Part shown: positions 1 through 36,338 of the stretch, in pieces
How the letters are laid out: every line of letters starts with the position of its first letter
How positions within the stretch are numbered: the first letter of the stretch is position 1
Source of the DNA: Halobaculum magnesiiphilum
Lineage (GTDB): Archaea; Halobacteriota; Halobacteria; Halobacteriales; Haloferacaceae
NCBI RefSeq assembly: GCF_019823105.1
Contig: NZ_CP081960.1
Coordinates: 310,001 to 374,000, forward strand
DNA length: 64,000 nt
Direction of reading: 5' to 3'
Made by a program: the position numbers and the translations under genes
Notes under the pieces: generated by a model
Database searches by the model: none
Told to the model about the DNA's origin: nothing
Seen by the model: only the letters and a program-made list of their open reading frames with translations

Positions 1-283
1 CGCCGACGATGAGGTCGACGTCCTCGCGTGCACACTGCTCGCCGGCGATGAAGTTGTTGCCGACGCCGCGCTTGGATCCGAACACCGTCGTGTACTCGGA
101 GGTGTCGTCGAGCGACGCCCGCTCGATGGTGTTCAGGATGTCCGCGCGGTTCGTGTTCAACAGCGCGATCCTGTCGTCGATGCCGGGGTTCTCCTCGCGG
201 GCGAGCAGTTCGGCCGCGATCCGGCCGCCGCCCTCACCCGATGCGACCACGCCCCAACGGGTGAACGTGTCCGCCCGGGACAT
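1..283 (-). CDS. Tubulin/FtsZ-like GTPase, N-terminal part (cut by window edge)
   Basis: The gene starts with ATG at 283 and runs off the left edge, leaving about 94 residues. The visible part is the start of a tubulin/FtsZ Rossmann fold: a glycine-rich first loop GEGGGRI at about residues 16-22, followed by the strand and turn LLNTNRAD at about 45-52, where FtsZ-like proteins place the second nucleotide-binding segment. The ATG overlaps the TGA of the upstream membrane protein by one base, so it is the eighth gene of the leftward operon that starts at 10050. The rest of the domain, including the GGGTGxG signature, lies outside the window, so GTP binding is inferred from the N-terminus and from two clearer relatives in the operon. 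Confidence 0.72.
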   Translation of the reverse strand, partial: MSRADTFTRWGVVASGEGGGRIAAELLAREENPGIDDRIALLNTNRADILNTIERASLDDTSEYTTVFGSKRGVGNNFIAGEQCAREDVDLIVG

Positions 284-2367
284 CAGGCGCTCACCCCCGT
301 CTCGTCGGCGGCGACGTCGGCGTCGAGCTCACGCAGCGTCGTGCGAATGAGGTCGTCGGAGGCCGGTACGGAGAGGAACTTCCGCCGCATTTCGTCGTAT
401 GTCATCGTTTCGCCGTCACTCAGGTTGTGGGTCGTTATGGTGTCCAGCCGCGACCGGAACTGGTCGTGGTCGTACACGAGGACGCGCCCGTCGTCGAGCG
501 TCGCCTCGTGGCCCTCCTCCTCGGCCCACAGGACGAGGAGACAGGGGACGTACTCGGCCGCGACGGGGATGTCCGAGTCGGGCGTGAGGTACTCGTCGGC
601 GGCGAATCCCTCCTCCAACTTGGGCGCCACCGTCGGGAGTTGGCTCCGCACATCATCGGTGTCGTCACCGCAGACGCGCTCGCGGAGCCCGATCTCCTCG
701 AGCACGAGTTCGACGGACTCGTCGTCGGAGACCTGCAACGTCGCCTCCGCGTCGGCGAAGCTCTCGGTCGGCGTGGTCGCGGTGACCGTGTACTCACCGT
801 AGGGCACCTCGTCGAACGTCGCCTCCGTGGCGACGAACGTGCTCGCCGTCTCGCGCTCGGAGACGCCGTCACCGGAGAGTTCGATCGTCAGATCGTGCTC
901 CTCCCCGGTCGAGGTCGCCAACTGCGCGGTGGCGGTCACGGCGTACGACTCGCCGCCGCCCTCGGCGGTGATCGCCGGCACCGACTGGTCGAACTCGACG
1001 CCGTCGTTCGCCTCGGCGTACAACTCGAGGAACGGCGTCGCGTCACGGACCGGCAGGTCGTCGCCGGTTACGCGCCCCTCCGTCCGAACACCGTCGGCGA
1101 TCCGCTCTTCGACCATGCCGTAGGAGTCGGCCACGGAGGCCTTCGACTCGGCCGAGTCGACCGCCTCCGTCAGGTCGGCTGCGGCCGCGAGCCACTCCTC
1201 GCGGAACGCGTCTAGGTCATCGGACTCGCGGAGCCGCGCCTCGTAGTCGGTCGCCACCGCCGGCGGCGCCGTGTAGAAGCCGACCGGCACGTCCGCGTCC
1301 CTGATCACCTCGACGTTCGTCTCCAGTTCCGTCTCGAGGGTCGCCACGACGCTCGTCGCCGCCCGGCGAACGTTCTCGCCGACGGCGTCCAACTCGTCGC
1401 TCGCGAGCGCCGAGTCGATACCTGAGAGCGTCTCGCGCGCCTCATCGAACGTCCGCAGGTCCTCGTCGGCCGCGTAGCGGTCGACGTCGACGGAGTCGAT
1501 CGTCGAGAGGAGCTTGTCGATGCTGTCGCGGTCGGCGGTGAACGCCGCGCTCACCTCCGACTCGGCGTCGCCCTGGGCGTCGTCGATGGCGGCGCTGGCG
1601 GCGTCCCAGTCGGCGTCGTCGATAGCTGCGCGCGCAGTTTCGAGATGGGACTCGATCCGCGCGGCGTCGCCGTCGTACTCGTCGACGGTCGATTCGATGC
1701 GGTCGACCGCGTCCTCGAACACGTCGGCCGCCTCCTCGCGCGCCTTCGAGAGGACGCGCTCGGTCTCCTCGGGGGCACCGCCGTCGGGGACGTCGTTCGG
1801 TACCGTCGAGACCGGCACGCCGTCGCCGTCGAGCACGGACTCGTTGACCGAGCGCGCGCCCTGCCGGGCGTGTTCGATCTGCGAGCGGCCGAACTCCGCG
1901 AACGACTCGTCGCGATCGTCGGCGAAGGTGCTCACGTCGGCCTGCAGCTTGTCGAACTCCTGCACGCGGCCGGGCGAATCGACCGAGATCGTCGCCGCGG
2001 CCACGTCGACGTGGACGCCGGCGTCCCCGAAGTCGTCGGCGACCTGGCGTGCCCGCGTCTCGAGTTCGCCGGGGTCCCACCGGTCGTGTTCGGCCTTGAG
2101 TCGGTTGTACGTCGTCAGTTCGTCGCGGAACGCCTCCGCTGCCGAGCGGGCGGCTTCCTGCACGAAGTCGCCCTGACTGGTATTGTCACGCGTGAGCACG
2201 CCACGGACGTACAGTCCGATGGACGCCACGACGGCGAGGGGCGCCCCGACGCCGATGACGTACACGCCGATCTGTGAGCCGAAATAGAGGAACGAGAGCA
2301 GGCCCACGAGCGCGGTCGCGAGAACGATTCCACCGATTCCGAGTGCTGCCTTGTACTGTCTCTTCAT
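283..2367 (-). CDS. Membrane-anchored coiled-coil protein of the tubulin-like operon
   Basis: 694 residues. Two hydrophobic helices at about 8-31 and 33-56 form an N-terminal hairpin anchor. A long, acidic, Ala/Glu/Asp-rich helical region of coiled-coil character follows, from about 60 to 400. After it comes a beta-rich segment around 455-560 with the look of a carboxypeptidase-regulatory or Ig-like fold (VPYGEYTVTAT), then a mixed C-terminal domain. With the two helices as a hairpin, most of the protein is probably cytoplasmic and able to contact the tubulin-like GTPases encoded on either side. Its ATG overlaps the upstream TGA (ATGA) and its own stop overlaps the next start. I recognise no catalytic motif. 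Role as membrane tether or filament partner is inference from architecture and operon position. Confidence 0.8.
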   Translation of the reverse strand: MKRQYKAALGIGGIVLATALVGLLSFLYFGSQIGVYVIGVGAPLAVVASIGLYVRGVLTRDNTSQGDFVQEAARSAAEAFRDELTTYNRLKAEHDRWDPGELETRARQVADDFGDAGVHVDVAAATISVDSPGRVQEFDKLQADVSTFADDRDESFAEFGRSQIEHARQGARSVNESVLDGDGVPVSTVPNDVPDGGAPEETERVLSKAREEAADVFEDAVDRIESTVDEYDGDAARIESHLETARAAIDDADWDAASAAIDDAQGDAESEVSAAFTADRDSIDKLLSTIDSVDVDRYAADEDLRTFDEARETLSGIDSALASDELDAVGENVRRAATSVVATLETELETNVEVIRDADVPVGFYTAPPAVATDYEARLRESDDLDAFREEWLAAAADLTEAVDSAESKASVADSYGMVEERIADGVRTEGRVTGDDLPVRDATPFLELYAEANDGVEFDQSVPAITAEGGGESYAVTATAQLATSTGEEHDLTIELSGDGVSERETASTFVATEATFDEVPYGEYTVTATTPTESFADAEATLQVSDDESVELVLEEIGLRERVCGDDTDDVRSQLPTVAPKLEEGFAADEYLTPDSDIPVAAEYVPCLLVLWAEEEGHEATLDDGRVLVYDHDQFRSRLDTITTHNLSDGETMTYDEMRRKFLSVPASDDLIRTTLRELDADVAADETGVSA

Positions 2368-3407
2368 AGAATCACCGCCAAGAGGTCACCGCCGCCGAGG
2401 ACGGCGCCGACCGCCGCGACGACGAGCGCGACGACGCCGAGGGCCAGCGGCACCGCGATCTGCTTCGGGCTGTACTGCGTCGCCGTCGAGACGCCCCGGT
2501 CGATCTCGATCTTCTCCAACGTTCGGCGAGCGAGGAGGTAGCCGACTCCCGCACCGACGACGAGGCCGCCCACGAGCGCGCCGCCGAGAACGAGCCGAAC
2601 GGTCATCGCCGCGTTCCCGCCGCGTCGTTCGAGGGCGCTGAGATACGCGTTCAGGTTCTCGCGCGTCGTCGCTTGGGTGGCCGAACGCTTCGTCTCGACG
2701 GCGTCGATCACCGTCCGCGCGTCCTGGGCGTCGCCCGCCTCGGCGGCGGCGAACGTCGCCCGTTCGAGCCGCTGACCCGCGGTCGTCAGGTTGGCTTCCT
2801 CGACGGTCGCCAACTGGTCCTCCGGGTCCGTCTCGAGTGCGCTCCCGTTCTCCGCCGCGGCCGCGAGCGTCTCGGAGGCGTTCGTCGCCTCGGAGCGCCG
2901 CGTCTCGAACGCCTCGTTCGCGCTCCGATACGTCTCCAGATCCGACTGGGATGCGAACTGGAGGGTCACCGGCTCCCCGTCCACGGTCGTCGTGGCCGAG
3001 TACCCGTTCTGAACGCCGATCGTCGGGCCGGAGAGGTCGGACTTCTGTGTCACCGCGCTCGCGGGGTCGATACCGTCGACGCCGGCGGCGACCGTGACGA
3101 CGACGCTCGAGTCACGCTCCGTCACCGACTCTATCCCCTGTGCTTCGCCCGCATCGAAGCCCCACGCCGTGTCGTACGGCTCCGGTTCGTCGCCCGAGCA
3201 GACGTACAGCGTCAGCGTCGTCCCCGGGTAGACGGTCGCGTCGCCGACGCGGTCGTCGGTGTCGTAGTACGCGACGAGCCGGTTGTCCGCGACGCCCGCG
3301 CACGGGGAGTCCGGGTTCGCCGCGCCGGCAACGACGCCGGGACCGACGGCCAACGCGATCGTGACGACCGCCACGACGAGCGCGGCGCTGGATCGCGTCC
3401 CCGTCAT
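2364..3407 (-). CDS. Exported, membrane-anchored protein of the tubulin-like operon
   Basis: 347 residues from ATG 3407, chosen because it lies two bases past the upstream stop and begins directly with a signal-like sequence (residues about 6-31, ending VVAGAAN). A longer in-frame start at 3446 would overlap the upstream gene and put extra residues before the signal. An extracytoplasmic domain with two cysteines follows (about 33-190), then a helical stretch (about 190-265) and two transmembrane helices near 266-293 and 315-347. The short stretch between the helices (RRTLEKIEID and on) would face the cytoplasm if the domain is outside. The fold was not recognised. It probably acts with the 95-aa protein upstream as the outward-facing part of the complex; that is inference. 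Confidence 0.75.
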   Translation of the reverse strand: MTGTRSSAALVVAVVTIALAVGPGVVAGAANPDSPCAGVADNRLVAYYDTDDRVGDATVYPGTTLTLYVCSGDEPEPYDTAWGFDAGEAQGIESVTERDSSVVVTVAAGVDGIDPASAVTQKSDLSGPTIGVQNGYSATTTVDGEPVTLQFASQSDLETYRSANEAFETRRSEATNASETLAAAAENGSALETDPEDQLATVEEANLTTAGQRLERATFAAAEAGDAQDARTVIDAVETKRSATQATTRENLNAYLSALERRGGNAAMTVRLVLGGALVGGLVVGAGVGYLLARRTLEKIEIDRGVSTATQYSPKQIAVPLALGVVALVVAAVGAVLGGGDLLAVIL

Positions 3408-3408
3408 C

Positions 3409-3696
3409 TCAGCGCATCCCCCGGTTCTGATAGGCGAACACCGCACCCCCGATCGCGCCGATCCCGACGCCGAGGCCGCCGCCGAGCAGCGCCGGCGAGA
3501 GCGGGAACGACGCCATCGAGACCGCCGTGTTCGTCTCGTCGTACTGCTGGGCGATCTCGTCGGTGAGCGCGCCGATCGGCTGGCTGTCGGCGGCGGACTC
3601 CTGTGCGACCCCGGTCGTCGCGAGCACGCCGCCCAGCAGGACGAGCCCGACCGCGACCAGCACCGTCGCCCCGCGCGTGCGGTCGACTCCCTTCAC
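3409..3696 (-). CDS. Small exported membrane protein of the tubulin-like operon
   Basis: 95 residues starting at GTG 3696, which overlaps the stop of the upstream tubulin-like gene (GTGA). It has a signal-like helix at about 9-31 (VLVAVGLVLLGGVLATTG), a short polar outside segment rich in Gln, Asp and Ser, and a Gly/Ala-rich transmembrane helix at about 66-89 followed by a basic end, NRGMR. The topology suggests a bitopic protein with a small external loop. There is no recognised family. Tight packing between a GTPase gene and the larger exported protein argues that all three are made together. Confidence 0.7.
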   Translation of the reverse strand: MKGVDRTRGATVLVAVGLVLLGGVLATTGVAQESAADSQPIGALTDEIAQQYDETNTAVSMASFPLSPALLGGGLGVGIGAIGGAVFAYQNRGMR

Positions 3697-4856
3697 GGCG
3701 TCACCCCCGCCGCGTGCTCGGCCGCGAGGTCCTCGATCTCTGCCAGCCGGGAGATGTCCTCGCGCGCGAACGTCAACAGCGTCGTGAACGACGCGAGGTT
3801 CCGCTTCGTCAGCGTCATCCCGATGTTGACCTCCGGGCAGTAGGAGTCGAGCAGCCCGCGGATCACCGACACCTGGATCCGGTAGTCGTCGTCAACGAGG
3901 TACGGCGCGGGCGCGCGAACTTGTCCGATCGCCTTGACCGCGTCCGTCGGGTTCACGTCCTCGACGCTGCGTTTCGAGACGGCCAGTCGCGAGAGCGTCG
4001 CCCCGTCGACCGACTTGCGCCCGACGAACGGAAGCAGATAGCCGGGAAGCGAACGCGTCATCGTGACCGACCGCCCGAGCGTCGCGTAGCCGACGCCGCC
4101 GTCGTCGAGCGTGAGCGACGTGACAACGTCCTGCAGGTCGATCACGGGCGCGTCGAGGTCGTCGTACTCACCGGGGTTGATCCGTTCGAGGATCGGGCCG
4201 GAAATGAGGTCGACGATCGCCGAAGCGGCGTAGTCGTTGTACTCGTTGAACCGGCCCTCCGCGGCGTCCTCGTACGCGAGCCGCTGGTTGTCGATGAGGA
4301 TCACCCCGTCGACGTGTTCCTCCAGTCTGTCGAGCCCGTACATCGCGTTCGTCGCCTGGCGGGTGGCGCTCGGGCCGTCGTCGCCGGTCACCGTTCCCGC
4401 GGTGTTGGGGAGGACCGCGACGGCGATGATGTCCGTCGACGAGCCGCCGTACTCGCGGATCGCCTCCGCGAGGTGTGGCGCGATCCCGCACCCGGTGCCC
4501 CCGCCCAGCCCGAGGAACAGGAACGCGAAGGGCGGCGTGCCGTCGCCGAATCGCTCCTCGTAGGCGTCTACTAACTGGGGCTGCTGTCCCGAGAGCGCGG
4601 CATCGGCCTTCTCCGGGTCCCTGCCGAACCCGCCTGTTACCTCCTCCTCGAACCCCGCCGTAGTGCCGGGTACGAGCCCACTCCCCTCGGAGACCCCGTA
4701 CCACGCCTCCCGTTCGATGTTCGAGAGGTTCTGGAGGTCCCGTATCGTCGAGTTGAACGCGACTGGCGTAGCCAGTTGGGCGACACGCTGGTGGTCGAAC
4801 ACCGCATCCACCAGCGAACACCCGGCCTGACCGGCGCCGACAAAGAGATATGGCAT
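3693..4856 (-). CDS. Divergent tubulin/FtsZ-like GTPase (387 aa)
   Basis: Tubulin/FtsZ-superfamily protein. The first nucleotide loop reads VGAGQAGCS at residues 7-15, resembling the GQxG of tubulins; the phosphate-binding signature GGGTGCG is at about 119-125; and an NQRL segment near 195 fits the T6 position, followed by an Asn/Asp-rich NEYNDYAAS stretch near 210-220 where the T7 catalytic loop should lie. It has roughly FtsZ/CetZ length but lacks obvious FtsZ hallmarks such as a conserved C-terminal tail. It resembles the Tubulin_2/FtsZ-like group that Makarova and Koonin described as a putative membrane-remodelling family. The 81-bp gap ahead of the gene is the largest inside the operon and could hold an internal promoter. 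Confidence 0.85.
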   Translation of the reverse strand: MPYLFVGAGQAGCSLVDAVFDHQRVAQLATPVAFNSTIRDLQNLSNIEREAWYGVSEGSGLVPGTTAGFEEEVTGGFGRDPEKADAALSGQQPQLVDAYEERFGDGTPPFAFLFLGLGGGTGCGIAPHLAEAIREYGGSSTDIIAVAVLPNTAGTVTGDDGPSATRQATNAMYGLDRLEEHVDGVILIDNQRLAYEDAAEGRFNEYNDYAASAIVDLISGPILERINPGEYDDLDAPVIDLQDVVTSLTLDDGGVGYATLGRSVTMTRSLPGYLLPFVGRKSVDGATLSRLAVSKRSVEDVNPTDAVKAIGQVRAPAPYLVDDDYRIQVSVIRGLLDSYCPEVNIGMTLTKRNLASFTTLLTFAREDISRLAEIEDLAAEHAAGVTP

Positions 4857-4937
4857 TGTCTACCTGACCCGGACTTTTGGTAAGGCCAACATAACTCTAC
4901 CGTCACATGTACGCTTTGCGATAACTGGAACCGGGGG

Positions 4938-6467
4938 TCACCCGCGGAGCCGTCTAAGCATCACGCTGTACTCGTTCCGTTCGTACAGCGCCTCGACTCG
5001 GTCGAGCAAGTCGTCGGCCGCCGAGGCGATCCCCCGTGCGCGCCCCTGCTCTCCGGCCGAGAGCGCCTCGCGTGCGTGCTCCTCCATCGTCTCCGTCAAC
5101 GACAGGAAGAACATCGGGATGCTGTGGTTGTGGTCGGTTCGCGAGTCGACGTACCGAGTGCGGATCTCCTGTCTGCGCTCGTCGAGCGCGTCGACCGCTG
5201 CGCCGGCATCGCCGACGGCCGTGCCGGCGTCGTCGCCCGTCACGTCCCCACCAACCGCGCCTCCGCCCACGGAACCGTCGGCGGCCGTCACGTCCGTGTC
5301 GGCCCCGCCCCCGGTCGTCCCCGATTCGAGCAGCGGGAGCAAATCGCGCTCGTAGAAGGCGACCTCCTCGCGGACCGCGTACGGGACGACGGCGTTGCTC
5401 GCGTCGGCGCGGTCCAGCATCGCCTCGAGGCGATCGACGCGGTCGCCGAGGGCGTCCGCGACGGGGCCGTCGATCCCGGACACCGTCTCCCCGAGCGACC
5501 GGACCCGAGCGGCGACGTCTTCGGCGTCGACATCGGCGGTGAGGTTCCGCACGGTCGCGGCCTCGTTGAGCGCGTCGACGCCCTCGCGAAGCGCGTCGGC
5601 GACCTCCTCGGGGTCGTCGCTGGCGACGCCGTCGAGCAGGTCCCGTGCCGGCTCACACTCGGCGCGGTTGTTCGCGCGGACCCGTCGCGCCGCCTCCGAT
5701 CCCGGCGCGCCGTCGGCGACGGAACCGGAGTCGGCGTCCGTGGCGGCCTCCGCGAGGAGTTCGACCCGCTCGGCCAGCGTCGCGTCCCGCCGCGGCTGTG
5801 GGCCGTCGATCCGCCCGAGCGCGCGATCGACGACGACGCGCGCGTCCTCGACCTCCGTCGCCGCCGCGTCGCCGTCGACGCCGGCGGCCTCGGCCATCCG
5901 GGCCACGCCCGCCGCGAGGTCGTCGTCGACGCCAGTCAGTCGGCCCGCGGTCCGCTCGGGGTCCTCGGGTTCGATCGCCCGGTCGATGTCGTCGGCCGCC
6001 TCGAGCCTGTCGACCGCGTCCGAGAGCGCCTCGCGGACCGCTCCCTCCCCCGTCGCCGACGGGGTCGCGAGCGCGTCGAGCAGCGACGCGGCCCGGTGGC
6101 CGCTCGGTCGCTTCGATCGGGACACGTCGTCGGCGACGGTCGCGACGACGCCGTCGCCCTCTGAGCCGCCCCCGCCCTGCCCTCCCGAGACGGGCCGATC
6201 GATGCTGAGGCGTCCACGCTCGACCAGCATCGCGAGTTCCCGTGCCTTGTCGGCGGGCGGGGCGTCGTTCTCGACGCGGCCGTCGGGGCCGGCGATGTCG
6301 GCGGCCGCCGCGAGGCGGTCAAGCGACTCCTCGAGTTCGCCGAGCGTCCGCTTTACGTCGCCCTCGGTCGGCCGCGAGCCGAGGCGATCCGCGATCGCCT
6401 CGATGTCGGGTTCCTCCGAGCCGCCGAACAGCCCCATGAACACGGCCGCGATTGGTGGTCCCGACAT
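4938..6467 (-). CDS. Soluble acidic helical (coiled-coil) protein of the tubulin-like operon
   Basis: 509 residues, very rich in Ala, Asp and Glu, almost entirely predicted helical, with no signal peptide and no membrane segment except a weakly hydrophobic N-terminal stretch (AAVFMGLFGG). A second possible start is the Met of MGLFGG at 6435. Two low-complexity Gly/Asp linkers, near 95-110 and 390-430, divide it into helical blocks. The C-terminal block (about 440-509) contains the least repetitive sequence, including HNHSIPMFFLSL, and may be the conserved interaction domain. It sits three bases from the zinc-finger tubulin gene upstream. Probably a cytoplasmic adaptor or filament-associated protein; function not recognised. 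Confidence 0.75.
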   Translation of the reverse strand: MSGPPIAAVFMGLFGGSEEPDIEAIADRLGSRPTEGDVKRTLGELEESLDRLAAAADIAGPDGRVENDAPPADKARELAMLVERGRLSIDRPVSGGQGGGGSEGDGVVATVADDVSRSKRPSGHRAASLLDALATPSATGEGAVREALSDAVDRLEAADDIDRAIEPEDPERTAGRLTGVDDDLAAGVARMAEAAGVDGDAAATEVEDARVVVDRALGRIDGPQPRRDATLAERVELLAEAATDADSGSVADGAPGSEAARRVRANNRAECEPARDLLDGVASDDPEEVADALREGVDALNEAATVRNLTADVDAEDVAARVRSLGETVSGIDGPVADALGDRVDRLEAMLDRADASNAVVPYAVREEVAFYERDLLPLLESGTTGGGADTDVTAADGSVGGGAVGGDVTGDDAGTAVGDAGAAVDALDERRQEIRTRYVDSRTDHNHSIPMFFLSLTETMEEHAREALSAGEQGRARGIASAADDLLDRVEALYERNEYSVMLRRLRG

Positions 6468-6470
6468 TGG

Positions 6471-8111
6471 TCACAGCATGTTGGACCGGCCGAGGCAGTC
6501 GAACAACGGCTGCACCTCGTTCCACACGTCGCGGATGTCCTCCGCCTGCACGCTCTGGCCCTCGTCCTTCAGGCGCTTGGCGTGCTCGTACATCGACTCC
6601 AGCGACGGCATCCGTGGGTTCCACAGGGTCCCCCACATGAACACGTCGTCGAGGTACGGGATGACGAGCTGGTTCAGCTGCACGTCGACGGTCTCGACGC
6701 CCGAGCGCGAGCCGGCGTCGAGGAACTCGTCGCCGTTGAGGATCTCCTGAAGCGTCCCGTCGGTTACGAACTCGGAGACGTCCGACATCTGCTCCTCCGG
6801 CCCGTAGATCATGAAGTTGCCGCCCCACGCCGTCGAAGGGTCGAAGTCGGCGAGCCGGTTCTGCAACAGCGTGTTGCGCGTGAGCAGTTCGAGGCTCGAC
6901 CGCGAGATGTCGTCCGATCGAAGCCGGCCCAGCGCCGGCGCGAGCACGACCGCCGGGCGCTCCTCGGGCGCCATGTCGTGCGGATACTTGTCCTCGACCA
7001 GCCGGAAGCTGTCGGCCACGTCGAAGACGCTCCCGCGGATGCTCATCGTCGCATCGCGGTCGGTGAGTTGCGGCGTCGACGACATCGTGAACGCCTCCAG
7101 GAACGCCACCAGCGGCTTGTTGAGGTCCGCGAACTCCGGCGGGTTGTACTGGTCGATCCCCTCGATACGCGGCTCGATGTCGGTGCTCGCACGGCGCAGG
7201 TGGTCGTTGTTGAACGGGATGATCGCGTCGGCCGACCGCGAGATGCGCGACAGGCCGATCACGCCGTTCGTCTTCGCACGGCCGCCCACCGCGGATTGCT
7301 GTCCGCCCTCCGAGGGAATGACGACGGAGCTGAGGATCGCCTGATCGATGACGAGTCCCGACTCCTGGACCTCCTCGCGGAGCTTCTCGGCGATGACCGG
7401 CGTCGCCCCGCAGCCGGTGCCCTTCGTGACGCTGTGGACAAGCATCACTGCCTGCGCGTCGCGGATGTCCTGGCTCGTCATGTCCCAGCGGTCGCGGAAG
7501 GGGTTGCTCCCCTCGGCGAAGTCGGCGGCCGCCACCTTCGCGCCGTTGCTCCAGCGGTATCCCATCCCGCTGTAGCCGTGCTTGCCGAACCCGATGATCG
7601 AGTTCGACAGGAGGTCGTTGCGGGAGTACTCCTTCAGCTCCTTGGTGTAGTAGGTCTGCTCCAACTCCGCGATGTTGGTGTTGAGCAGGCCGTAGCCCGC
7701 CAGGCCGCCCTGCCAGATGCGGGCGCGGTCCTCGTGGTTGCGCGCGAGCGTGTCCCGACGCATCAACACCGCGTCGACGATGTTGTTGCCGGCGCCGCCG
7801 ATCCCGATGAGGAACCACTTGCGGCCGTACATCTCGCCGTCGTCGTCCATCGACACCGGACCCAGGTCCTCGGCGCCGCCCAGGTCGGGCGGGGCGTCGT
7901 CGTCGCCGGCGGGGGTATCAGGACCGCCAGCTCCGGCGGCTCCGTCGCCGTCCTCGCCCGCGCCCTCCTCGAAGAGGTGGGCGAACCGGTCGCCGTAGAT
8001 GGCCCGAACCGACGGCTGCGCGTCGCCGTGGGCGTTCAGAACGTGTTCCTCGATGCTATCCTCCTCCCAGTCCGCCGGTGCGGTAAAACAGATCTCGCAG
8101 GATTCGGTCAT
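6471..8111 (-). CDS. Tubulin/FtsZ-like GTPase with N-terminal zinc finger (546 aa)
   Basis: The first 30 residues carry a C2H2-type pattern: C5 and C8 (CEIC), then two histidines near 23 and 28 (HVLNAH). An acidic, Gly/Pro-rich linker leads to a tubulin-like domain from about residue 93: GIGGAGNNIVD as first nucleotide loop, LLNTN as the next strand, SVTKGTGCG at about 225-233 as a variant of GGGTGxG with Lys in place of Gly, and NNDHL near 300 at the T6 position. The rest is longer than in FtsZ, with a well conserved-looking C-terminal region (YLDDVFMWGTLWNPR). Zinc-finger fusion to a tubulin fold is unusual; it may recruit a partner or DNA. Polymerisation and GTPase activity are inferred from the family, not shown. 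Confidence 0.85.
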   Translation of the reverse strand: MTESCEICFTAPADWEEDSIEEHVLNAHGDAQPSVRAIYGDRFAHLFEEGAGEDGDGAAGAGGPDTPAGDDDAPPDLGGAEDLGPVSMDDDGEMYGRKWFLIGIGGAGNNIVDAVLMRRDTLARNHEDRARIWQGGLAGYGLLNTNIAELEQTYYTKELKEYSRNDLLSNSIIGFGKHGYSGMGYRWSNGAKVAAADFAEGSNPFRDRWDMTSQDIRDAQAVMLVHSVTKGTGCGATPVIAEKLREEVQESGLVIDQAILSSVVIPSEGGQQSAVGGRAKTNGVIGLSRISRSADAIIPFNNDHLRRASTDIEPRIEGIDQYNPPEFADLNKPLVAFLEAFTMSSTPQLTDRDATMSIRGSVFDVADSFRLVEDKYPHDMAPEERPAVVLAPALGRLRSDDISRSSLELLTRNTLLQNRLADFDPSTAWGGNFMIYGPEEQMSDVSEFVTDGTLQEILNGDEFLDAGSRSGVETVDVQLNQLVIPYLDDVFMWGTLWNPRMPSLESMYEHAKRLKDEGQSVQAEDIRDVWNEVQPLFDCLGRSNML

Positions 8112-8133
8112 TTTGTAGTCTCTATGGATGCGG

Positions 8134-10050
8134 TTACGTGTACTTTTCGCGGAAGCGACGGTGCGCCGCCGACATGGATCGCTCGATCGACTCGCCCTCG
8201 GCCGGGGTGAACTCGATGAATCCCGGTGGTTCGGGGCTCTGGAGGTCGACGGCCTCGAACAGATCGGACTGTCGACCGGCGAACCGCTCGACGTTGACGA
8301 GCACGTCCCGCGTCGCGACCGCCTCCGGGAGGTCCTCCAGCCGGAACTGAACGATCCGGTCGTCGCCGTCGGCGACGCGCTCGAACTCGCGGAAGGCGTA
8401 CAACACGCCGTCGACGACCTCCTCCGGCGGTGCGACGCGAACCGACTCCCGACCCGAGCCAGTCTCGACCGCGTCGGACTGATTCGATGTGCCGGCCGTG
8501 TCGCCGGCGGTGTCCGAGGAGGCGTCGTTCGCGGCCTCCACGTCGCTGGACGCCCCCGTCTCGGCCGCTACGCCGTCGTACGTGAACGTGATCCGACCGC
8601 CGCCGGCGTCCATGGTTGCGTCGACGCCGTCGTATCCGGCCCGGATGGCGGGAACGATCGCCTCGATGTATTCGTCGGGCGTCTCCGTCGGGATCGAAAC
8701 CGTGGCGTGGCGGGCGTCGATCGTCGCCTCCAGCGTCGACAACAGTTCCGCCGTCGTGACGAGCATCGCGGCCCGCTCCGCGGCGTCCTCGGCGGTCGAC
8801 AGGGCGTCGTCGAACTGGCAGTCGTGCAGCGACTCGCGCGCGCTGTCGAGCTCCGAGCGCACGTCGCGTGCGCCGGCGAGGTCTGGGTTCCGTCCGGCGA
8901 CCAACACCTCGTCGATCCGATCGCGGAAGGGAACGTCCATCGCGTCGATCTGATCGTCCAGCGTCTCGAGCCGTGCCTCCGCGGTCGAGATCGCCTCCAC
9001 GACGGGCGCCTCGCGCTCGCGAACGTGCGCACGGACTCGCTGTCGATGTTCGTCGACCGCCTCGATCGCCGCGGCGACGGCGCCGAACGAGTCGGCCGAC
9101 CGCGTCAGCGACTCCAGCTCCTCGTCGACGTGATCGAGGTGGACCGCGTCCGCGCCGCCGGGGATCGACACTTCGCGATGCTTCGTGGGGAGGTTGACCG
9201 TCCGATAGCGCTCGCCGTACTCCGAGCGGACGACGAACTCCCCGTACTCGGTTCGGATCCCGCTGGCGAGTGCCTGACGAAGCCGGTCTGTGAGCTCCCC
9301 GATCCGGGCCTCAGGATCGAGTCCGTCGATCTCGGATTCGACACCGGCGCGGGCCGCCTGCGCGGCCTCGCCGTCGGACATCGTCCGTATCTCGTCGATG
9401 TCGTCCTCGATTCCGTCCAACCGGGTACGGAACTCCTCGGCGCCCTCGCGAACGTCGCGAACGCCGCCGGGGGCGACGTTCGAGAGCGTCTCGAGCCCCT
9501 CGAACCGAGCGTCGAAGGCGGTGTCGAACGCCGACCGCTTGTTCGCGAGATCGGCCTCCAGACGCCCGAGGTCGTCCCCGGTCTCCTCGAGCACCACCTC
9601 GTTCCACGGATACGTCGCGACCGCGAACAGCTGCAGGGCGGCCGCGCACACCGGAACGGCGTAGAACGCGGCGAGCTGGACGAGCGGGACGTCGGCCGAG
9701 GTCAGCGGCGCGTACACGCCGAAGAACAGCGCGAAGAACAGCACCGCCGAGAGCGTTGCCGCCCCGTAGGCGGCCTCGCGGTGCTCGACGAGCAACATCG
9801 CGCCGCCCTGGGCCGCCCACGCCAGCGCGATGAGCAGGAACAGCCCCATCACGACCGCCGAACTGTCCTTGAACACCACCGCCGCCTCGAACAGCACGGG
9901 GATCGACAACACCGGATCCGCGATGGGCGTGAGCCCCGCCGAGTTCGACGTGTAGCCGAACAGCGCCAACAACGTCTGCACGAGCGCGATCACGAGGGGG
10001 ATCCCTGCGGCCCCCCACGCGACCGTTTGCCCGTGCGCGGTTCTAGACAT
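8134..10050 (-). CDS. Polytopic membrane protein with coiled-coil domain, first gene of the tubulin-like operon
   Basis: 638 residues. Four or so membrane helices fill the first 145 residues (about 10-32, 60-88, 93-115 and 123-146). A long cytoplasmic-type helical region follows (about 150-480) with many charged heptads, then an acidic Ser/Thr-rich linker (about 495-540) and a compact C-terminal domain ending REKYT. It parallels the 694-aa protein later in the operon: N-terminal membrane anchor plus coiled coil. The ATG at 10050 lies about 27 bp downstream of a TATA-like box, so this is likely the promoter-proximal gene of a leaderless message. No enzyme motif was seen. A scaffold anchoring the tubulin-like proteins to the membrane is the simplest inference. 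Confidence 0.78.
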   Translation of the reverse strand: MSRTAHGQTVAWGAAGIPLVIALVQTLLALFGYTSNSAGLTPIADPVLSIPVLFEAAVVFKDSSAVVMGLFLLIALAWAAQGGAMLLVEHREAAYGAATLSAVLFFALFFGVYAPLTSADVPLVQLAAFYAVPVCAAALQLFAVATYPWNEVVLEETGDDLGRLEADLANKRSAFDTAFDARFEGLETLSNVAPGGVRDVREGAEEFRTRLDGIEDDIDEIRTMSDGEAAQAARAGVESEIDGLDPEARIGELTDRLRQALASGIRTEYGEFVVRSEYGERYRTVNLPTKHREVSIPGGADAVHLDHVDEELESLTRSADSFGAVAAAIEAVDEHRQRVRAHVREREAPVVEAISTAEARLETLDDQIDAMDVPFRDRIDEVLVAGRNPDLAGARDVRSELDSARESLHDCQFDDALSTAEDAAERAAMLVTTAELLSTLEATIDARHATVSIPTETPDEYIEAIVPAIRAGYDGVDATMDAGGGRITFTYDGVAAETGASSDVEAANDASSDTAGDTAGTSNQSDAVETGSGRESVRVAPPEEVVDGVLYAFREFERVADGDDRIVQFRLEDLPEAVATRDVLVNVERFAGRQSDLFEAVDLQSPEPPGFIEFTPAEGESIERSMSAAHRRFREKYT

Positions 10051-10077: not shown

Positions 10078-10084
10078 TATAAAA
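10078..10084 (-). promoter_or_regulatory. TATA-like box of the tubulin-like operon
   Basis: On the minus strand the sequence TTTTATA ends 27 bases before the ATG at 10050. That spacing matches an archaeal box A feeding a transcript that begins at or very near the start codon, so the message is probably leaderless, which is common in haloarchaea. A purine-rich BRE-like element is not clear. No other box this good was seen within the operon. Confidence 0.5.
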
Positions 10085-12021: not shown

Positions 12022-13023
12022 TCAGTACGCCTCCCCGGCGGATATCGGTCCGCTGAACGCCGAATAGAGGACGACGAAGTACGTCGCCACGAGCGGCAAC
12101 AACAGCGCGGCGCCGATCGACATGAGATTCAACGGCAACGTCGAGACGATCGCCTCGCCGACGGTAAGGCCTGCGGCAGGGTCCATGCTCGGATACATGA
12201 GCAGCGCGACGACCGAGACGAGCCCGTACGTCAGCCCCGCGGCCGCCGCGAGAGCGGCGAGGTTCGCCCCGCGCCGAAGCGCGAGCGCGTACCCGCCCGC
12301 CAGCGCGACGGAGGCGACGACGAGCGCGATCACCGGCGCCGTCACCAGCGCGTCGACGCCGGCGGGAAGGCGAACTGCGAGGACGCCGAGGGTCACGACC
12401 ACCGAGAGCAGGTACGCCGCGACAGCGCCGAGGCCGATCCGCCGCACCGACGCCGGAAGCGCGTCCGCGGCCTTCAAGCGGAGGAACGCGGCCCCGGAGA
12501 CGACCGTCAGCGCCGTGACCGTGACCCCGACGACGATCCCGGCGAGGGTGAAAGAGCGAGGGCTGCCGACGAGCCAGTTGCCCGCGAACGCGCCGAGGAG
12601 AAACGGCGCGAGCACGCTCCCGGCGATGAACGAGCGGCCCCACCAGCGCTGCCAGCGCTCGTCGTGGCGCTGTTCGTACATCTCCGGCGCGAGCCCGCGG
12701 AGGATGAGCGCGCCGAGGATACCGAACATGAGGAGGTAGTGGCGGCTGAACAGGTTGGCGTACACGGCCGGGAACGCCGCGAACAGGGCCCCGCCGAAGA
12801 CGACGAGCCAGACCTCGTTACCGTCCCAGAACGGACCGATCGCCGAGAGGACGGTCTCGCGCGCCTCGCCGTCCTCCAGCGTCGCAAAGATCGCGCCGGC
12901 GCCGAAGTCGAAGCCGTCGAGAAACAGGAACGTCCCCAACATGGCGAACACGAGGGCGAACCACAGCTCCGGCAGCGGCAGTCCGAACAACGGGCCCGCC
13001 GCGAGCGCCTCGACGCTAGTCAT
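12022..13023 (-). CDS. cydB: Cytochrome bd-type ubiquinol/menaquinol oxidase subunit II
   Basis: 333 residues, the usual CydB length, with about eight to nine transmembrane helices. The N-terminal region has the family pattern FLDGFDFGAGAIF (about 32-44) and the FWDGNEVWLV segment near 65-76. CydB supports the heme-bearing CydA in the bd oxidase, which reduces oxygen to water with electrons from quinol. Its start overlaps the end of cydA by eight bases. High-affinity oxygen use and protection against oxidative stress are known roles of this enzyme family. Confidence 0.95.
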   Translation of the reverse strand: MTSVEALAAGPLFGLPLPELWFALVFAMLGTFLFLDGFDFGAGAIFATLEDGEARETVLSAIGPFWDGNEVWLVVFGGALFAAFPAVYANLFSRHYLLMFGILGALILRGLAPEMYEQRHDERWQRWWGRSFIAGSVLAPFLLGAFAGNWLVGSPRSFTLAGIVVGVTVTALTVVSGAAFLRLKAADALPASVRRIGLGAVAAYLLSVVVTLGVLAVRLPAGVDALVTAPVIALVVASVALAGGYALALRRGANLAALAAAAGLTYGLVSVVALLMYPSMDPAAGLTVGEAIVSTLPLNLMSIGAALLLPLVATYFVVLYSAFSGPISAGEAY

Positions 13024-14452
13024 CGTCGCTCACCCCCGCGGGTGCCGCGTCCGACTCCGGCCGTCGGTCCGGAACCGAATCGAGGTCCGCCTCGTCCGGC
13101 GGTCCGCTCCGGATGAGCCGCACGATGACGTACGTGTACACCGCGAGGATCGCGGTGTAGACGGTGGCGAATCCCGACAGCGTGATCATCGCCTCGGTAC
13201 CGGTCAGTCCCGGCGAGACCCCCTCGCTCGTCTTGAGCACGCCCTGAATCACCCACGGCTGTCGGCCGACCTCGGTGACGACCCACCCGAGCTCGACCGC
13301 GAGGATCCCGAGCAGGCTCGAAGCCATCAGCGACTTGTGGAGCAGCCCGTCCTCGAACAGTTCCCCGGTGTACCACCGGTAGCCGCCCCAGAACGCCAGG
13401 AGGATGAACCAAAAGCCCAGCCCGACCATCGCACGGAACGACCAGAACACGATGGCGACCGGCGGCGCCTCCGATTCGAAGGAGTTCAGTCCGCGGATCT
13501 CGGCGTTCGGGTTCCCCCCGCTCGCCAGCCAGGAGGCGCCGCCGGGGATCCCGATCCCGAACAGCTCCTTCGCGCGGGGATCGGTGATCTGGCTCAGGTC
13601 CGTCGGGATCGCGAAGATGTACTCCGGGACGTACGCCTCGGTGTCCCAGACGGCCTCCATCGCGGCGAACTTCTGCGGCTGCGTCTCGTAGACGTGGCGG
13701 GCGTACAGATCGCCGTGAAGCACTTGGAGGGGAGCGGTGAGCAGCAACGCGACAAGCGCGATCTTGAGGGTCTTCTGCCAGAACGCGACGTGCTCGACGG
13801 GATACCCCCAGACGTGGTGGCGGTAGACGTAGTACGCCGCGACGCCGGCCATGAACAGCGCGACCGATTCGACCGCGGCGTTTTGCATGTGGACGAACAT
13901 GAACCCGAACCGCGGATTCAGGTACGCCGCGATCGGGTCGACGAGGTGAATGACCGGCTGCCCGTTCTCGGTGGCGACCTCGTAGCCTCGCGGGGTCTGC
14001 ATCCACGAGTTCGCGATGAGGATCCAGACGGCCGACAGCCAGGTCCCGAGGCCCACCGCGACGCTGGAGATCATGTACAGGCGATCGGACACCCGCTCGC
14101 GCCCGAACACGAAGATGCCGAGGAACGTGGCCTCCAGCATGAACGCCATCATGCCCTCGACGGCGAGCGGCCCGCCGAACAACTCGCCCGCGGCCGTCGA
14201 GAACGCCGCGAAGTTCGTCCCGAACTCGAACTCCAACACGATCCCCGTCACCGTCCCGACAACGAACGAGATGGCGAAGATCTTGGTCCAGAAGCGTCGA
14301 AGCTGCTCGTACACCGGGTCGCCGCCGCGGATCTCGCGCCACGTGAAATAGATAAGAAACGGCGCGAGGCCCATACTCATCACCGGGAAGACGATGTGGA
14401 CGATCGTCGTCAGGGCGAACTGGAGCCGGCTCGCGAGGACTGGATCTATCAT
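13016..14452 (-). CDS. cydA: Cytochrome bd-type oxidase subunit I
   Basis: 478 residues, first gene of the operon. Early in the protein LQFALTTIVHIVFPV holds the family's N-terminal heme-ligand histidine. The GRQPW motif near residue 400 (VTEVGRQPW) and the Q-loop region place it in the CydA family, which binds hemes b558, b595 and d and oxidises quinol at the outer face. No long-Q-loop insertion is evident. CydA and CydB form the functional core. Upstream is a 341-bp intergenic region; the -30 area has an A/T-rich TTATGT-like element. Terminal oxidase function is secure; whether the quinol is menaquinol is assumed from haloarchaeal biology. Confidence 0.95.
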   Translation of the reverse strand: MIDPVLASRLQFALTTIVHIVFPVMSMGLAPFLIYFTWREIRGGDPVYEQLRRFWTKIFAISFVVGTVTGIVLEFEFGTNFAAFSTAAGELFGGPLAVEGMMAFMLEATFLGIFVFGRERVSDRLYMISSVAVGLGTWLSAVWILIANSWMQTPRGYEVATENGQPVIHLVDPIAAYLNPRFGFMFVHMQNAAVESVALFMAGVAAYYVYRHHVWGYPVEHVAFWQKTLKIALVALLLTAPLQVLHGDLYARHVYETQPQKFAAMEAVWDTEAYVPEYIFAIPTDLSQITDPRAKELFGIGIPGGASWLASGGNPNAEIRGLNSFESEAPPVAIVFWSFRAMVGLGFWFILLAFWGGYRWYTGELFEDGLLHKSLMASSLLGILAVELGWVVTEVGRQPWVIQGVLKTSEGVSPGLTGTEAMITLSGFATVYTAILAVYTYVIVRLIRSGPPDEADLDSVPDRRPESDAAPAGVSDDD

Positions 14453-14793
14453 TGTGCGTCCGTGTGCGAGTAGTTCACAGTCGACACGTCATGACACATA
14501 ACAGTTTGTTCGGCACCGCCGATCGTCGAACCACCCGCAGGCCCACCGAACACCTCACGTCTCGATGACATCGTCCGTCCGTTCACGAACGGAGTACGGA
14601 GACCGACGAATCACACCCGCCGCTTGTTCCCAGTGTGTGGGAACCGTCCGACCTCGTGGACGCTCGAGCCTGTCGAGTCATCGCGTCTCGGCGACTCCGA
14701 CGACACGATCGGAACGATATCGTTTCCAGTCACTTCGATCGACCCGTCCCAACTCCAGAGGGCTGACCGCCAAAGACGAGGTTCAAACGACGT
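14453..14793 (-). other. Intergenic region ahead of cydA, no gene seen
   Basis: 341 bp between the end of the dsrE-like gene and the cydA start. Both neighbours are leftward, so it should hold the cyd promoter. A TTATGT element and the near-palindromic GTGTCATGAC lie about 35-55 bp before the cydA ATG and are candidate promoter/operator sites. The short open frames across it have poor composition and no start context. Confidence 0.35.
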
Positions 14794-15393
14794 TCAAACG
14801 AGCAGTTGCACGTCAGATTCCGCCATGTGCTGGAGCGCGGTGGCCGCGCCGACGCCGGTGACCACCTCGTCGTAGAAGTCGTCCTCGTCGTAGTCCATCA
14901 GGTCGATCGTCATCTGACACGCCTGCAGCTCGACCCCCTGTTCGAGCGAGACCTCGACGAGTTCCTCGATGGTGGCGGTCCCGTTGTCGTCGATCCGCCG
15001 CTCCATCAGTTTCGTCGCCATGCGATCCATTCCGGGCAGGGCCGCCAGCGCGTTCGGCATCGGCATGTTCGGGTTGCCGACGGCAGACAGCTGGAGGCTC
15101 TTGGAGTTCTCCTCGTGGAGGATGTCCAGTCCCCAGAAGGTGTGGAACACGACGACCTCCCAACCGAAGGCGGCCGCGGTCGACGCCAGAATGAGCGGCG
15201 GATACGCCATGTCGAAGGTCCCCTTCGTGGCGATAATGGTCAGCTTCTTCGGGCCGTCGTCGGCGTCGGCCTCCAGCCGCGCGACAGAATCTTCAAGCTC
15301 TTCGACGCGTGCTCGAAGTTTCGCCTCGGTCAGCTCCTCCGCGTCGGCTTCGGCGTCGCCGGCGGCCGAGGATTCGGGAGTGTCGGCGCTCAT
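14794..15393 (-). CDS. DsrE/DsrF/DrsH-like sulfur-carrier family protein
   Basis: 199 residues. An acidic, helical N-terminus (about 1-48) with a coiled-coil stretch leads to a DsrE-like domain that starts KKLTIIATKGTFDMAYPPL (about 49-67). A cysteine in the segment LQACQMTIDLM near 157 sits where DsrE/TusD-type proteins carry the reactive persulfide-bearing Cys. These proteins pass sulfane sulfur along relays together with TusA. It lies one base downstream of the tusA-like gene, so the two are co-transcribed. The substrate and final acceptor are not visible from sequence. Confidence 0.85.
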   Translation of the reverse strand: MSADTPESSAAGDAEADAEELTEAKLRARVEELEDSVARLEADADDGPKKLTIIATKGTFDMAYPPLILASTAAAFGWEVVVFHTFWGLDILHEENSKSLQLSAVGNPNMPMPNALAALPGMDRMATKLMERRIDDNGTATIEELVEVSLEQGVELQACQMTIDLMDYDEDDFYDEVVTGVGAATALQHMAESDVQLLV

Positions 15394-15394
15394 C

Positions 15395-15640
15395 TTACGC
15401 GGTTTTCCGAACGTAGTGTCTGAACTCGTCGCCGTCGTCGATCTGATCGAGCAGGTCGACGCCGTCGGTCCCGGCGGCCCACCCGTCGATGTCGCTCATG
15501 CTGCCGGGGTCGGTCGCAACCACTTCGAGGGTATCGCCCTCGTCGATTCCGTCCACGGCTGACTTCGTCTTCACGACGGGCATCGGGCACGATTCGCCTG
15601 TCACGTCGAGCGTCTCGGTAACGTCGTATGTGTCGTTCAT
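15395..15640 (-). CDS. tusA: TusA-family sulfurtransferase
   Basis: 81 residues with the hallmark CPMP motif at Cys18 (ESCPMPVVKTKSAV). The fold is small two-layer alpha/beta. TusA proteins carry a persulfide on this Cys and deliver sulfur for tRNA thiolation, molybdenum cofactor formation or dissimilatory sulfur metabolism. The C-terminal half (DLLDQIDDGDEFRHYVRKT) is family-like. It heads a two-gene leftward unit with the DsrE-like gene, divergent from the rhodanese-MBL gene across 243 bp. Linkage to persulfide dioxygenase-like and YeeE genes points to sulfane-sulfur handling. Confidence 0.92.
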   Translation of the reverse strand: MNDTYDVTETLDVTGESCPMPVVKTKSAVDGIDEGDTLEVVATDPGSMSDIDGWAAGTDGVDLLDQIDDGDEFRHYVRKTA

Positions 15641-15883
15641 TGGGAAATCGCTCCGGTACTATATTGGAGCTATTACACAATATTGGTTCCTGGCTTAAAA
15701 TCATATCGGTCCCGATAACTCGAGATCGGAGAACTGTTGTGTCGATTATTCGAGGTAGATAGTAGGTTTTGCGTATCGGATTCGTAATCGTCTCCGAGAT
15801 CCGCCGCCGGAGTAGTATTGTGTATGTTGAGATATTCTATCCGAACTCTTATGCCTGTCCCCCGAGTACTGAGCGGTGTTACG

Positions 15884-34348: not shown

Positions 34349-34532
34349 GAACCGTATTCGAGTTCGACGACGCTAGTGAAATTGTATTAGTTTGACAGAG
34401 ATTCTAGTACAACAGCCGGTACGTGGCTGATGCGAATTTTGCACGGAGTTCGTTTCAGATTCAGTCGGATCGCCTCGCCCAGTAGAGCGGGCGTATCTGC
34501 ACATACCGGATACTCAGAGACCGATTGGGAGG

Positions 34533-34769
34533 TTACGCCCAAATATTTTCTCGGGCACCGTCAACGAGAACGAGTCCATCACTTGTGATTGTTACATTGT
34601 GATTGGGGAGTTCAAACGATAGTGTCCACGACGCGGAGTCATGGGAGGCCAACAACTGAATCGCATCTACGTCGATAAACTCCTGAAGGGGTCTATCGAC
34701 TTCATCACGGTCGGCACCTTTTGCGTGAGCAATCGCCTCAACGACCTCAACAACGAGAGATTGATCCAT
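34533..34769 (-). CDS. HalOD1 output-domain protein
   Basis: 78 residues from ATG 34769; an in-frame ATG at 34802 would add 11 residues and is possible. HalOD1 features: LVVEVVEAIAHAKGAD, PLQEFIDVDAIQLL, and the terminal hairpin NVTITSDGLVLVD. It is downstream of a DUF7344-like gene on the same strand, the same two-gene pattern as at 29046-29817. The DNA here is less GC-rich than the chromosome-like parts. Confidence 0.7.
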   Translation of the reverse strand: MDQSLVVEVVEAIAHAKGADRDEVDRPLQEFIDVDAIQLLASHDSASWTLSFELPNHNVTITSDGLVLVDGARENIWA

Positions 34770-34980
34770 CAAATTTCTATCTCTTTGCCAATTGATAGCC
34801 ATTATGAATCATTGTATACGTATCTATGGTTGATTTTGAGAGAGATACCACAAACGAACTTCGTGCTGACTCCATCCTCTGTATTCAGTAATCCACTGTT
34901 CTTCGATTTATCAGTGAGCAGGTGTATTAGGCGATATGAAGGTACTGCGAACTCACCGTGTGAGTTGTCACCGGGGGCTA

Positions 34981-35382: not shown

Positions 35383-35628
35383 TTCGCTGGGAACGTACTC
35401 GAGCCAGAATGTAAACAGGATAGTTTTCTGATGAAAGGGGTGACAGACAGGGTGGACAATACCGTCGACGTACAGACAGCACCGAAAGGTGAGTTCTTCA
35501 CCTGAATCGGTCATCCCCCGGCGATGGGAATTGCCTGCTGCATATGCAGCACGATGTCGGCTTGAAGCGAGTCGGGCGGGTCGTTTTGTACCCCTGCTAC
35601 CGCGTCCTCTGAATCGAACGGTCTGCTG

Positions 35629-35778: not shown

Positions 35779-35869
35779 TCGGGAATCCCTCCATGAGACC
35801 GCTTCAACTCAAACTGCAGTCACTGTGGCAATATAGTTACTGTCCGGTTCCCACATCTTCGGGATGCTA

Positions 35870-36261: not shown

Positions 36262-36320
36262 ACGACTGGGTATCTTCTTGAACTGGCGTTGTTCGACTCG
36301 GCAGAAGATTCAAACGCGTA

Positions 36321-36336: not shown

Positions 36337-36338
36337 GC

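Follow-up and report, generated by a model that had tools for sequence, protein, structure and literature searches.

Tubulin and ESCRT (endosomal sorting complex required for transport) are two hallmark membrane-shaping systems of eukaryotic cells. An operon of Halobaculum magnesiiphilum bears on the question of whether the two ever worked as one machine in archaea. It lies at the edge of the 64,000-nucleotide stretch analysed here (the window, C3:310001-374000 of a 487-kb contig; genome size 3.73 Mb). In it, three tubulin-superfamily genes, T1, T2 and T3, stand among genes for membrane, exported and soluble proteins, in the order g1-T1-g3-T2-g5-g6-g7-T3-g9-g10-g11 on the minus strand (Table 1). 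The window holds seven complete genes, with the start of g1 at 10050, and the 5′ end of an eighth, T3, exactly as a preliminary description of the window had placed them. Past the window edge, the operon continues through T3, g9, g10 and g11, down to C3:302442. Convergent with g11, both here and in Halobacterium salinarum, is a five-gene operon for h1, h2, h3, an AAA ATPase and a beta-propeller/immunoglobulin (Ig) protein, from here on the ESCRT operon. Both operons very probably belong to the Halo_adaptin ESCRT system. Our best explanation, to which we give a probability of about 60%, is that the 11-gene operon is the tubulin and membrane arm of this system, and that its outcome is membrane remodelling.

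This explanation is carried first by co-occurrence. The T1 profile matched 40 of the 391 Halobacteria genomes at 1e-30, and 38 of these below 1e-200. In all 38, g11 was found on the same contig, 10.6-13.7 kb away. A search with h1, at 1e-10, detected the identical 38 genomes and 0 of the 353 others. In 33 of the 38, h1 was within 15 kb of g11. It was unlinked in the remaining five, either 252 and 86 kb off on the same contig (G020 and G131) or on other contigs (G102, G185 and G268), and linkage by itself therefore does not account for the co-occurrence. Within Halobacteria, the genomes with the tubulin operon are also those with the ESCRT operon.

The second line of evidence is the gene content next to g11. 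The complete series h1-h2-h3-AAA-propeller was present in 18 of 20 fetched flanks, as well as in the window's own genome and in H. salinarum; the count includes the Halobaculum halobium flank, where two of the five genes are in broken frames. The two flanks without the full ESCRT operon had only the propeller gene (G012) or none of the genes nearby (G020). The AAA ATPases of the window genome and H. salinarum were 57% identical; Pfam AAA was matched with 106.3 and 108.2 bits. Their best relatives in the PDB were p97/Cdc48, and the AAA domain was Cdc48/CdvC-like. A CDC48_2 match was weak and below the cut-off, and no MIT domain was matched in the ATPase at E 0.1. The H. salinarum propeller-Ig protein (OE_RS12020) had PQQ_2 and CARDB matches above the cut-off. 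The soluble proteins h1, h2 and h3, encoded in this order, were without Pfam matches above the cut-off.

Table 1 Features of the tubulin operon and the convergent ESCRT operon. Plain positions are those of the window; positions with C3 are those of the contig.
Feature	Position	Strand	Description	Unit
g1	8134..10050	-	638 aa; membrane protein; first gene of the operon; H. salinarum OE_RS12075	module A
T1	6471..8111	-	546 aa; tubulin-superfamily GTPase	module A
g3	4938..6467	-	509 aa; soluble, acidic, read as helical	module A
T2	3693..4856	-	387 aa; tubulin-superfamily GTPase	module B
g5	3409..3696	-	95 aa; small, fast-evolving, two hydrophobic segments	module B
g6	2364..3407	-	347 aa; signal peptide, exported part, two C-terminal transmembrane segments	module B
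g7	283..2367	-	694 aa; two N-terminal transmembrane segments	module B
T3	2..283 (5′ end in window; full gene to C3:309084)	-	399 aa; tubulin-superfamily GTPase	module B
g9	C3:306181-309078	-	outside window	module B
g10	C3:305177-306178	-	outside window	module B
g11	C3:302442-305180	-	outside window	module B
h1	C3:294625-295749	+ (opposite to g11)		ESCRT operon
h2	C3:~295733-296809	+ (opposite to g11)	frame ends, start codon not chosen	ESCRT operon
h3	C3:~296810-297544	+ (opposite to g11)	frame ends, start codon not chosen	ESCRT operon
AAA ATPase	C3:297634-299187	+ (opposite to g11)	Vps4/Cdc48-like	ESCRT operon
Propeller-Ig protein	C3:~299169-302204	+ (opposite to g11)	frame ends, start codon not chosen	ESCRT operon
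TATA-like box TTTTATA	10078..10084	-	28-34 bases before the g1 start

The tubulin operon itself was conserved as a unit. Profiles were used to scan 27 stretches, 25 of which hold operon genes. The order g1-T1-g3-T2-g6-g7-T3-g9-g10-g11 was complete in 21 of the 25 (that of the window and 20 others) and partial in four. Among the mapped stretches, g3 of L085 was split over two frames, g11 of L038 was cut by the stretch end, and several distant g1 and g11 frames matched just part of the profile. The same order was found in two annotated plasmids, of H. salinarum and Natrinema. A chance neighbourhood, against which the co-occurrence was a further test, is excluded by this conservation of gene order. 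In H. salinarum R1, plasmid PHS2 carries the whole operon as OE_RS12025-12075 and the ESCRT operon as OE_RS12000-12020; T1 and T2 are annotated there as 'cell division protein FtsZ' and T3 as 'hypothetical protein'. The mostly 1-4 bp overlaps of the preliminary description held only in part: the junctions are tight, but just three of the seven in the window overlap (T2/g5 and g6/g7 by 4 bp, g7/T3 by 1 bp), and the other four are gaps of 22, 3, 81 and 1 bp. Over all ten junctions of the operon, four overlap by 1-4 bp, and the widest gap is the 81 bp between g3 and T2. The TATA-like box upstream of g1 is likely the operon promoter, with a very short or no leader. Its invariance across six Halobaculum loci is weak evidence, because these are close relatives.

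Halobaculum halobium had two similar operon copies, L039 (G003:C2:6500-26499) and L031 (G003:C2:414900-434890), which would be separated by ~38 kb on a circular form of the 463,690-bp plasmid. Broken frames affected T1, T2 and g11 in the 6.5-26 kb copy, and base 1 of the contig had a further, partial match to h1. The duplicate is likely an assembly redundancy.

The patchy presence (38 of 391 genomes) and the replicons could also indicate a TubZ-like segregation system carried by a plasmid or other element, or a role in defence. Plasmid partition by TubZ is recognised by a DNA-binding TubR and a centromere beside tubZ, and by a plasmid location. The operon was on contigs of 336-487 kb in five of six Halobaculum genomes (two plasmids, two draft contigs) and on plasmids in H. 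salinarum and Natrinema, and the AAA protein resembles the AAA domains of IetA and TRIP13. However, in seven genomes (G006, G012, G014, G018, G020, G119 and G215) the operon was on contigs of 2.8-4.2 Mb, and its many membrane and exported partners speak against both roles. PADLOC was without a match for nine of the ten proteins tested, and the AAA match was generic. Judged by replicons, partners and PADLOC matches, we consider segregation or defence very improbable.

All three tubulin-like proteins matched PF00091 above the Pfam cut-off of 33 bits (T1 52.1, T2 53.9 and T3 37.6), which bears out their assignment to the tubulin/FtsZ superfamily in the preliminary description. Six further PF00091 genes were found elsewhere in the genome. 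With the Tubulin_2 profile (cut-off 27 bits), T1 and T2 stayed below the cut-off (14.7 and 23.2) and T3 was without a match. With the NCBIfam ftsZ profile (cut-off 295 bits), the scores were 34.5, 46.6 and 23.7 for T1, T2 and T3. Structure prediction, proposed earlier as a check, was performed with AlphaFold2 for T1 and for the T3 of L095, an orthologue with about 95% identity to that of the window. The T1 model had modest confidence, with a predicted local distance difference test score (pLDDT) of 66.4, a predicted template modelling score (pTM) of 0.67 and TM-scores of about 0.5 by query length. For this model, Foldseek ranked OdinTubulin first among PDB structures (TM-score 0.51 by query length) and tubulins, CetZ2 and FtsZ next. 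The T3 orthologue (pLDDT 78.4, pTM 0.84) had CetZ1 as its top match (TM-score 0.69), followed by CetZ2 and gamma-tubulin. Both models matched tubulin, CetZ and FtsZ at probability 1.00. T1 and T3 are thus predicted to fold as tubulins, and an absence of the fold was not seen in either.

The relationships of the three proteins were examined in a quick IQ-TREE tree of 59 rows (15 T1, 15 T2, 14 T3, 12 FtsZ/CetZ-type and 3 FtsZl1). Outgroup rows were named FtsZ or CetZ from motifs, the FtsZl1 proteins were cut to 420 residues, and some FtsZ rows begin late. Long branches led to L090 and L091 among the T1 rows, to L092 among the T2 and T3 rows, and to the FtsZl1 rows. T1, T2 and T3 each formed one side of a branch, with support by the Shimodaira-Hasegawa-like approximate likelihood ratio test (SH-aLRT) of 99, 99 and 100, apart from the FtsZ/CetZ-type and FtsZl1 rows; the tree leaves the deep branching order among the tubulin families unsettled. 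On sequence grounds, T1, T2 and T3 are three separate families outside FtsZ and CetZ, and the earlier statement that none of them looks like FtsZ1, FtsZ2 or CetZ stands.

Loop motifs were largely kept. The T4 loop reads TKGTGCG in T1, GGGTGCG in T2 and GGGTGNG in T3 of the window. GGGTG was present in every T2 and T3 row of the tree, and TKGTGCG in 13 of the 15 T1 rows. The T7 loop has the acids D364 and D367 in T1, IDLQD in T2 and IDVED in T3, and its acidic pair was retained in 44 of 44 T1-T3 rows. T1 was also considered as a dead subunit without the first T7 acid. This was rejected: PPEFADL precedes the core helix, and by alignment and model alike T7 is at D364/D367, a pair without variation in 22 rows. 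The N terminus of T1 bears a C2H2 zinc-finger-like motif (C5, C8, H23 and H28), invariant in 22 of 22 sequences. Mean identity to five other Halobaculum loci was 93.3% for T1, 96.9% for T2 and 96.2% for T3, compared with 75.8-88.2% for the other operon proteins. The tubulins evolve slowest in the operon, and T2 is its most conserved protein.

A cell-division role was set aside. The genome has two further FtsZ-type proteins, L001 and L002, with the T7 sequences NLDFAD and NLDYAD, and T1 was absent in five of the 11 Halobaculum genomes searched.

The partner proteins are compatible with a machine that spans the membrane. By hydropathy, g1 has five N-terminal hydrophobic segments, g7 two and g5 two; g3 and the tubulins have none. 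A signal peptide is followed by two transmembrane segments in g6, and by one each in g9, g10 and g11. Hydrophobic-segment counts were the same in the H. salinarum homologues. The membrane description given earlier for the five partners in the window agrees with these counts, and the membrane-spanning arrangement proposed there fits the topology. The remainder of g1, which was present in all module-A stretches mapped, is long, acidic and read as helical. In g7, the transmembrane segments are followed by a long acidic region, an Ig-like stretch (a weak SpaA match, below the cut-off) and a C-terminal part. The g9 protein has ~430 residues outside, a transmembrane segment at 460-478 and ~480 residues inside, where a CarboxypepD_reg match was barely above the cut-off (33.9 vs 32.3). 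The HYDIN/VesB-type Ig match of g11 was borderline (25.6 vs a cut-off of 25.5). The Natrinema homologue of g3 had a bacterial PH domain (bPH_2) above the cut-off and a zinc ribbon barely below it. Profiles recognised g5 in 11 of the 21 complete loci. It is probably widely present yet fast-evolving, because annotated small open reading frames occupy its position in H. salinarum and Natrinema.

Two modules make up the operon: A (g1-T1-g3) and B (T2-g5-g6-g7-T3-g9-g10-g11). The g11 profile matched 42 of the 391 Halobacteria genomes at 1e-15. Among the four without a strong T1, G012 and G091 carried module B alone, and G227 and G359 had short matches in fragmented assemblies. Module A stood alone in G031 and G040. 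The neighbourhood survey, also proposed in the preliminary description, thus found conserved neighbours, with g11 near T1 in all 38 strong-T1 genomes. Conservation of GTPase genes without their neighbours, named there as a refuting result, was seen only in part, in the four genomes with one module by itself.

The lone modules connect the operon to a different system. FtsZl1 proteins, with the Tubulin_2 domain, belong to proposed membrane-remodelling systems (Makarova and Koonin 2010, PMC2875224). An FtsZl1 gene was found ~5-8 kb from the lone module in G012, G031 and G091, with frames of 1159, 1147 and 1174 aa and Tubulin_2 matches above the cut-off. The loci concerned are L094 and L035 (G012:C1), L090 and L117 (G031:C4), and L092 and L118 (G091:C1). 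Common to the three was a related protein of 460-490 aa, read as membrane-bound. Those of G012 and G091 also shared a related frame of 700-750 aa with a P-loop pattern, perhaps the membrane GTPase mentioned in 2010 for archaeal FtsZl1 systems. In G040, a 458-aa protein (L091:2148-3524) was considered as FtsZl1-like; it matched none of the three FtsZl1 proteins, and G040 was therefore counted as without an FtsZl1 neighbour. It has an AAA protein nearby. Directly upstream of its lone module A, a g9-like protein (L091:13030-15681) has both a protein kinase domain (PF00069, E 5.5e-16) and an Ig stretch of the CarboxypepD_reg type. A regulatory link between phosphorylation and these tubulins is possible. 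Among the matches listed, at least three of the 38 full-operon genomes (G197, G225 and G236) had a frame of more than 700 aa with Tubulin_2 above the cut-off, on a contig other than that of the operon.

Modules A and B and the ESCRT operon might then be two or three independent membrane systems, linked by joint transfer. Each module occurs alone and without h1, and h1 is away from the operon in five of 38 genomes. We find this quite unlikely, since T1, g11 and h1 are always together in 38 genomes from 16 of the 86 genera, even when unlinked, three of the four lone modules have an FtsZl1 operon as neighbour, and a propeller homologue is close to each of the four.

Outside Halobacteria, parts of the operon were found in an apparently older setting. 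In the phylum, the T2 profile matched 45 of 364 genomes at 1e-20, of which 36 were outside the class, in families f22 and f30. The outside-class matches had E values of 1e-23 to 1e-41, except for G640 with 5e-103. Eight of these 36 loci were fetched, picked mostly among the better matches. A g7 homologue adjoined the T2-like gene in seven of the eight; g10 and g11 were both present in five, and a sixth had g10 at the contig end. A long FtsZl1-like gene was present in four of the eight, and the three tested were all above the Tubulin_2 cut-off. The GGGTG loop was gone in the seven outside-class T2-like proteins aligned, which suggests that they are partners of FtsZl1 without GTPase activity. 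In G640, the eighth locus, T2 retained GGGTG, and the fetched 8 kb contained no other part of the set.

In the outside-class loci fetched, where T2-like, g7, g10 and g11 genes occur together, the profiles of h1-h3 and the AAA ATPase were without a match. This favours a machine for secretion or cell-surface assembly. The exported proteins g6, g9, g10 and g11 would be its working part, as a surface layer, a fibre or an adhesin. Tubulins and AAA ATPase would merely position or recycle it, without membrane bending or vesicles. Four proteins have a signal peptide and a membrane anchor, and two of them are over 900 aa, with Ig-like matches. The co-occurrence of h1 with T1 in 38 of 38 genomes argues instead for a remodelling role in Halobacteria, and three different tubulins would exceed the need of a placement cue. 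We regard a pure surface machine as unlikely, yet as the foremost of the alternatives.

We return to the tubulin and membrane arm of an ESCRT system, against which several points weigh. The co-occurrence counts ignore phylogeny, as does a hypergeometric figure computed for them, which is not taken as a probability. The T4 loop of T1 deviates from GGGTG, and the confidence of its model is modest. The absence of T1 from five of 11 Halobaculum genomes means that the operon is dispensable. The four lone modules, all without h1, indicate that no module depends strictly on its counterpart or on the ESCRT core. The naming of h1, h2 and h3 as winged-helix or ESCRT-III-like proteins follows the passages of Makarova et al. 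2024 (PMC10936438). We found one strong propeller protein per locus, a second not having been sought by its own profile, vs two in that paper. In Haloferax volcanii, vesicle formation is reported to use a small GTPase, and CetZ deletions to leave vesicle output unchanged (PMC10927574); vesicles therefore do not need such a system. The lack of h1 in the great majority of Halobacteria genomes likewise speaks against a role simply in vesicle formation.

Family knowledge, topology and context lead us to infer one machine, tubulin polymerisation and an outcome in membrane remodelling. T1, T2 and T3, all with the T7 acidic pair, would polymerise at the cytoplasmic side of the membrane, into filaments that are either separate or mixed. 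Module A would tether T1 through the polytopic g1 and the adaptor g3, and module B would tether T2 and T3 through g7. The single-pass g9, with an outer part and an Ig-containing part in the cytoplasm, could, like the tails of g6, g10 and g11, transmit filament position or force across the membrane to an outer layer. The putative winged-helix/ESCRT-III-like proteins and the propeller-Ig 'adaptin' may choose the site or cargo, and the AAA ATPase would disassemble the complex. The membrane would thereby be remodelled locally, in the form of budding, sorting or a reorganised surface, and not for essential cell division.

A bolder version is possible, which we put forward tentatively. It is a hybrid tubulin-ESCRT transmembrane machine, with a mixed three-tubulin polymer clamped by two membrane modules to an outer Ig layer and disassembled by a Vps4-like ATPase. 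It may have grown from an older system of FtsZl1 and a pseudo-tubulin (T2-like), by swapping in T1 and T3 and recruiting the ESCRT core. FtsZl1, Halo.Tub and Halo_adaptin would then be one modular lineage of machines that shape membranes. The complete gene set is on a plasmid in H. salinarum, a species with gene-deletion methods, which makes the question directly testable.

Next to the operon, frames at window positions 12022-17077 were interpreted as subunits of cytochrome bd and as sulfur genes of the TusA/DsrE and rhodanese/MBL types; the annotation of H. roseum has these neighbours as well. At 34001-40000, after an integrase-like frame (33203-34348), G+C content was ~55-58%, between stretches of 66-69%; this is perhaps a mobile insertion.

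Among known systems, Halo_adaptin is the closest. It was reported by Makarova et al. 2024 in mBio (PMC10936438; preprint PMC11188069). The passages available describe a Vps4/Cdc48-like ATPase with no MIT domain and a VAT/Cdc48-type N-part, two winged-helix proteins and one of ESCRT-III/PspA type encoded upstream of it, two propeller-type adaptin-like proteins, one CetZ-like or CetZ-related protein, a membrane protein and two further Ig proteins (PMC10936438). Our loci match these features in most points: the AAA ATPase is without MIT, and T3, g9, g11 and g10 behind the propeller gene fit the CetZ-related protein, the two Ig proteins and the membrane protein. Of propeller-Ig proteins, one was found per locus. 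In locus G014, of the genus Haloquadratum, the AAA gene is followed by the five operon genes propeller, g11, g10, g9 and T3, which reproduces most of the published list, bar the second propeller protein. The difference is that those passages name one tubulin and leave T2, T1, g7, g6, g5, g3 and g1 unnamed. By its title, a supplementary table of the paper shows five genes per side (PMC10936438); the listing therefore presumably ends at T3, with T2, T1 and the other partners falling outside. In the literature searched, which left out supplements and many subscription papers, we found no description of a three-tubulin operon as part of an ESCRT system. The cluster of the preliminary description is thus not self-contained: it extends beyond the window and very probably belongs to this system, with one of its tubulins already in print. 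New are two more tubulins and five more partners, and the two modules that were each found alone. Halo_adaptin would then have about double the size given in its published text.

Halo.Tub genes were described as quasi-tandem, with coiled-coil neighbours (Santana-Molina et al. 2023, PMC9871819). The passages of that paper treat them as one group, and give no operon, ESCRT link or module structure. CetZ belongs to the same superfamily, and CetZ1 is the nearest solved structure of T3; T1, T2 and T3 nevertheless fell outside the grouping of the CetZ-like proteins of their own genome in the tree. Expression of cetZ5 (VNG6260G) in H. salinarum NRC-1 has been reported to change over growth (PMC7439475). 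The FtsZl1 systems, as far as described in the passages of the 2010 paper, likewise combine a tubulin-superfamily protein with membrane and helical partners. They differ in the position of T1-T3 relative to the Tubulin_2 cut-off, and no vWA or OmpA match was found among the operon proteins scanned. That part of the contrast drawn earlier holds, but the contrast was too sharp. It is new that three of the four lone modules stand beside FtsZl1 operons, and that homologues of T2, g7, g10 and g11 share FtsZl1 loci outside Halobacteria. Together, the lone modules and these links join three previously separate lines of literature.

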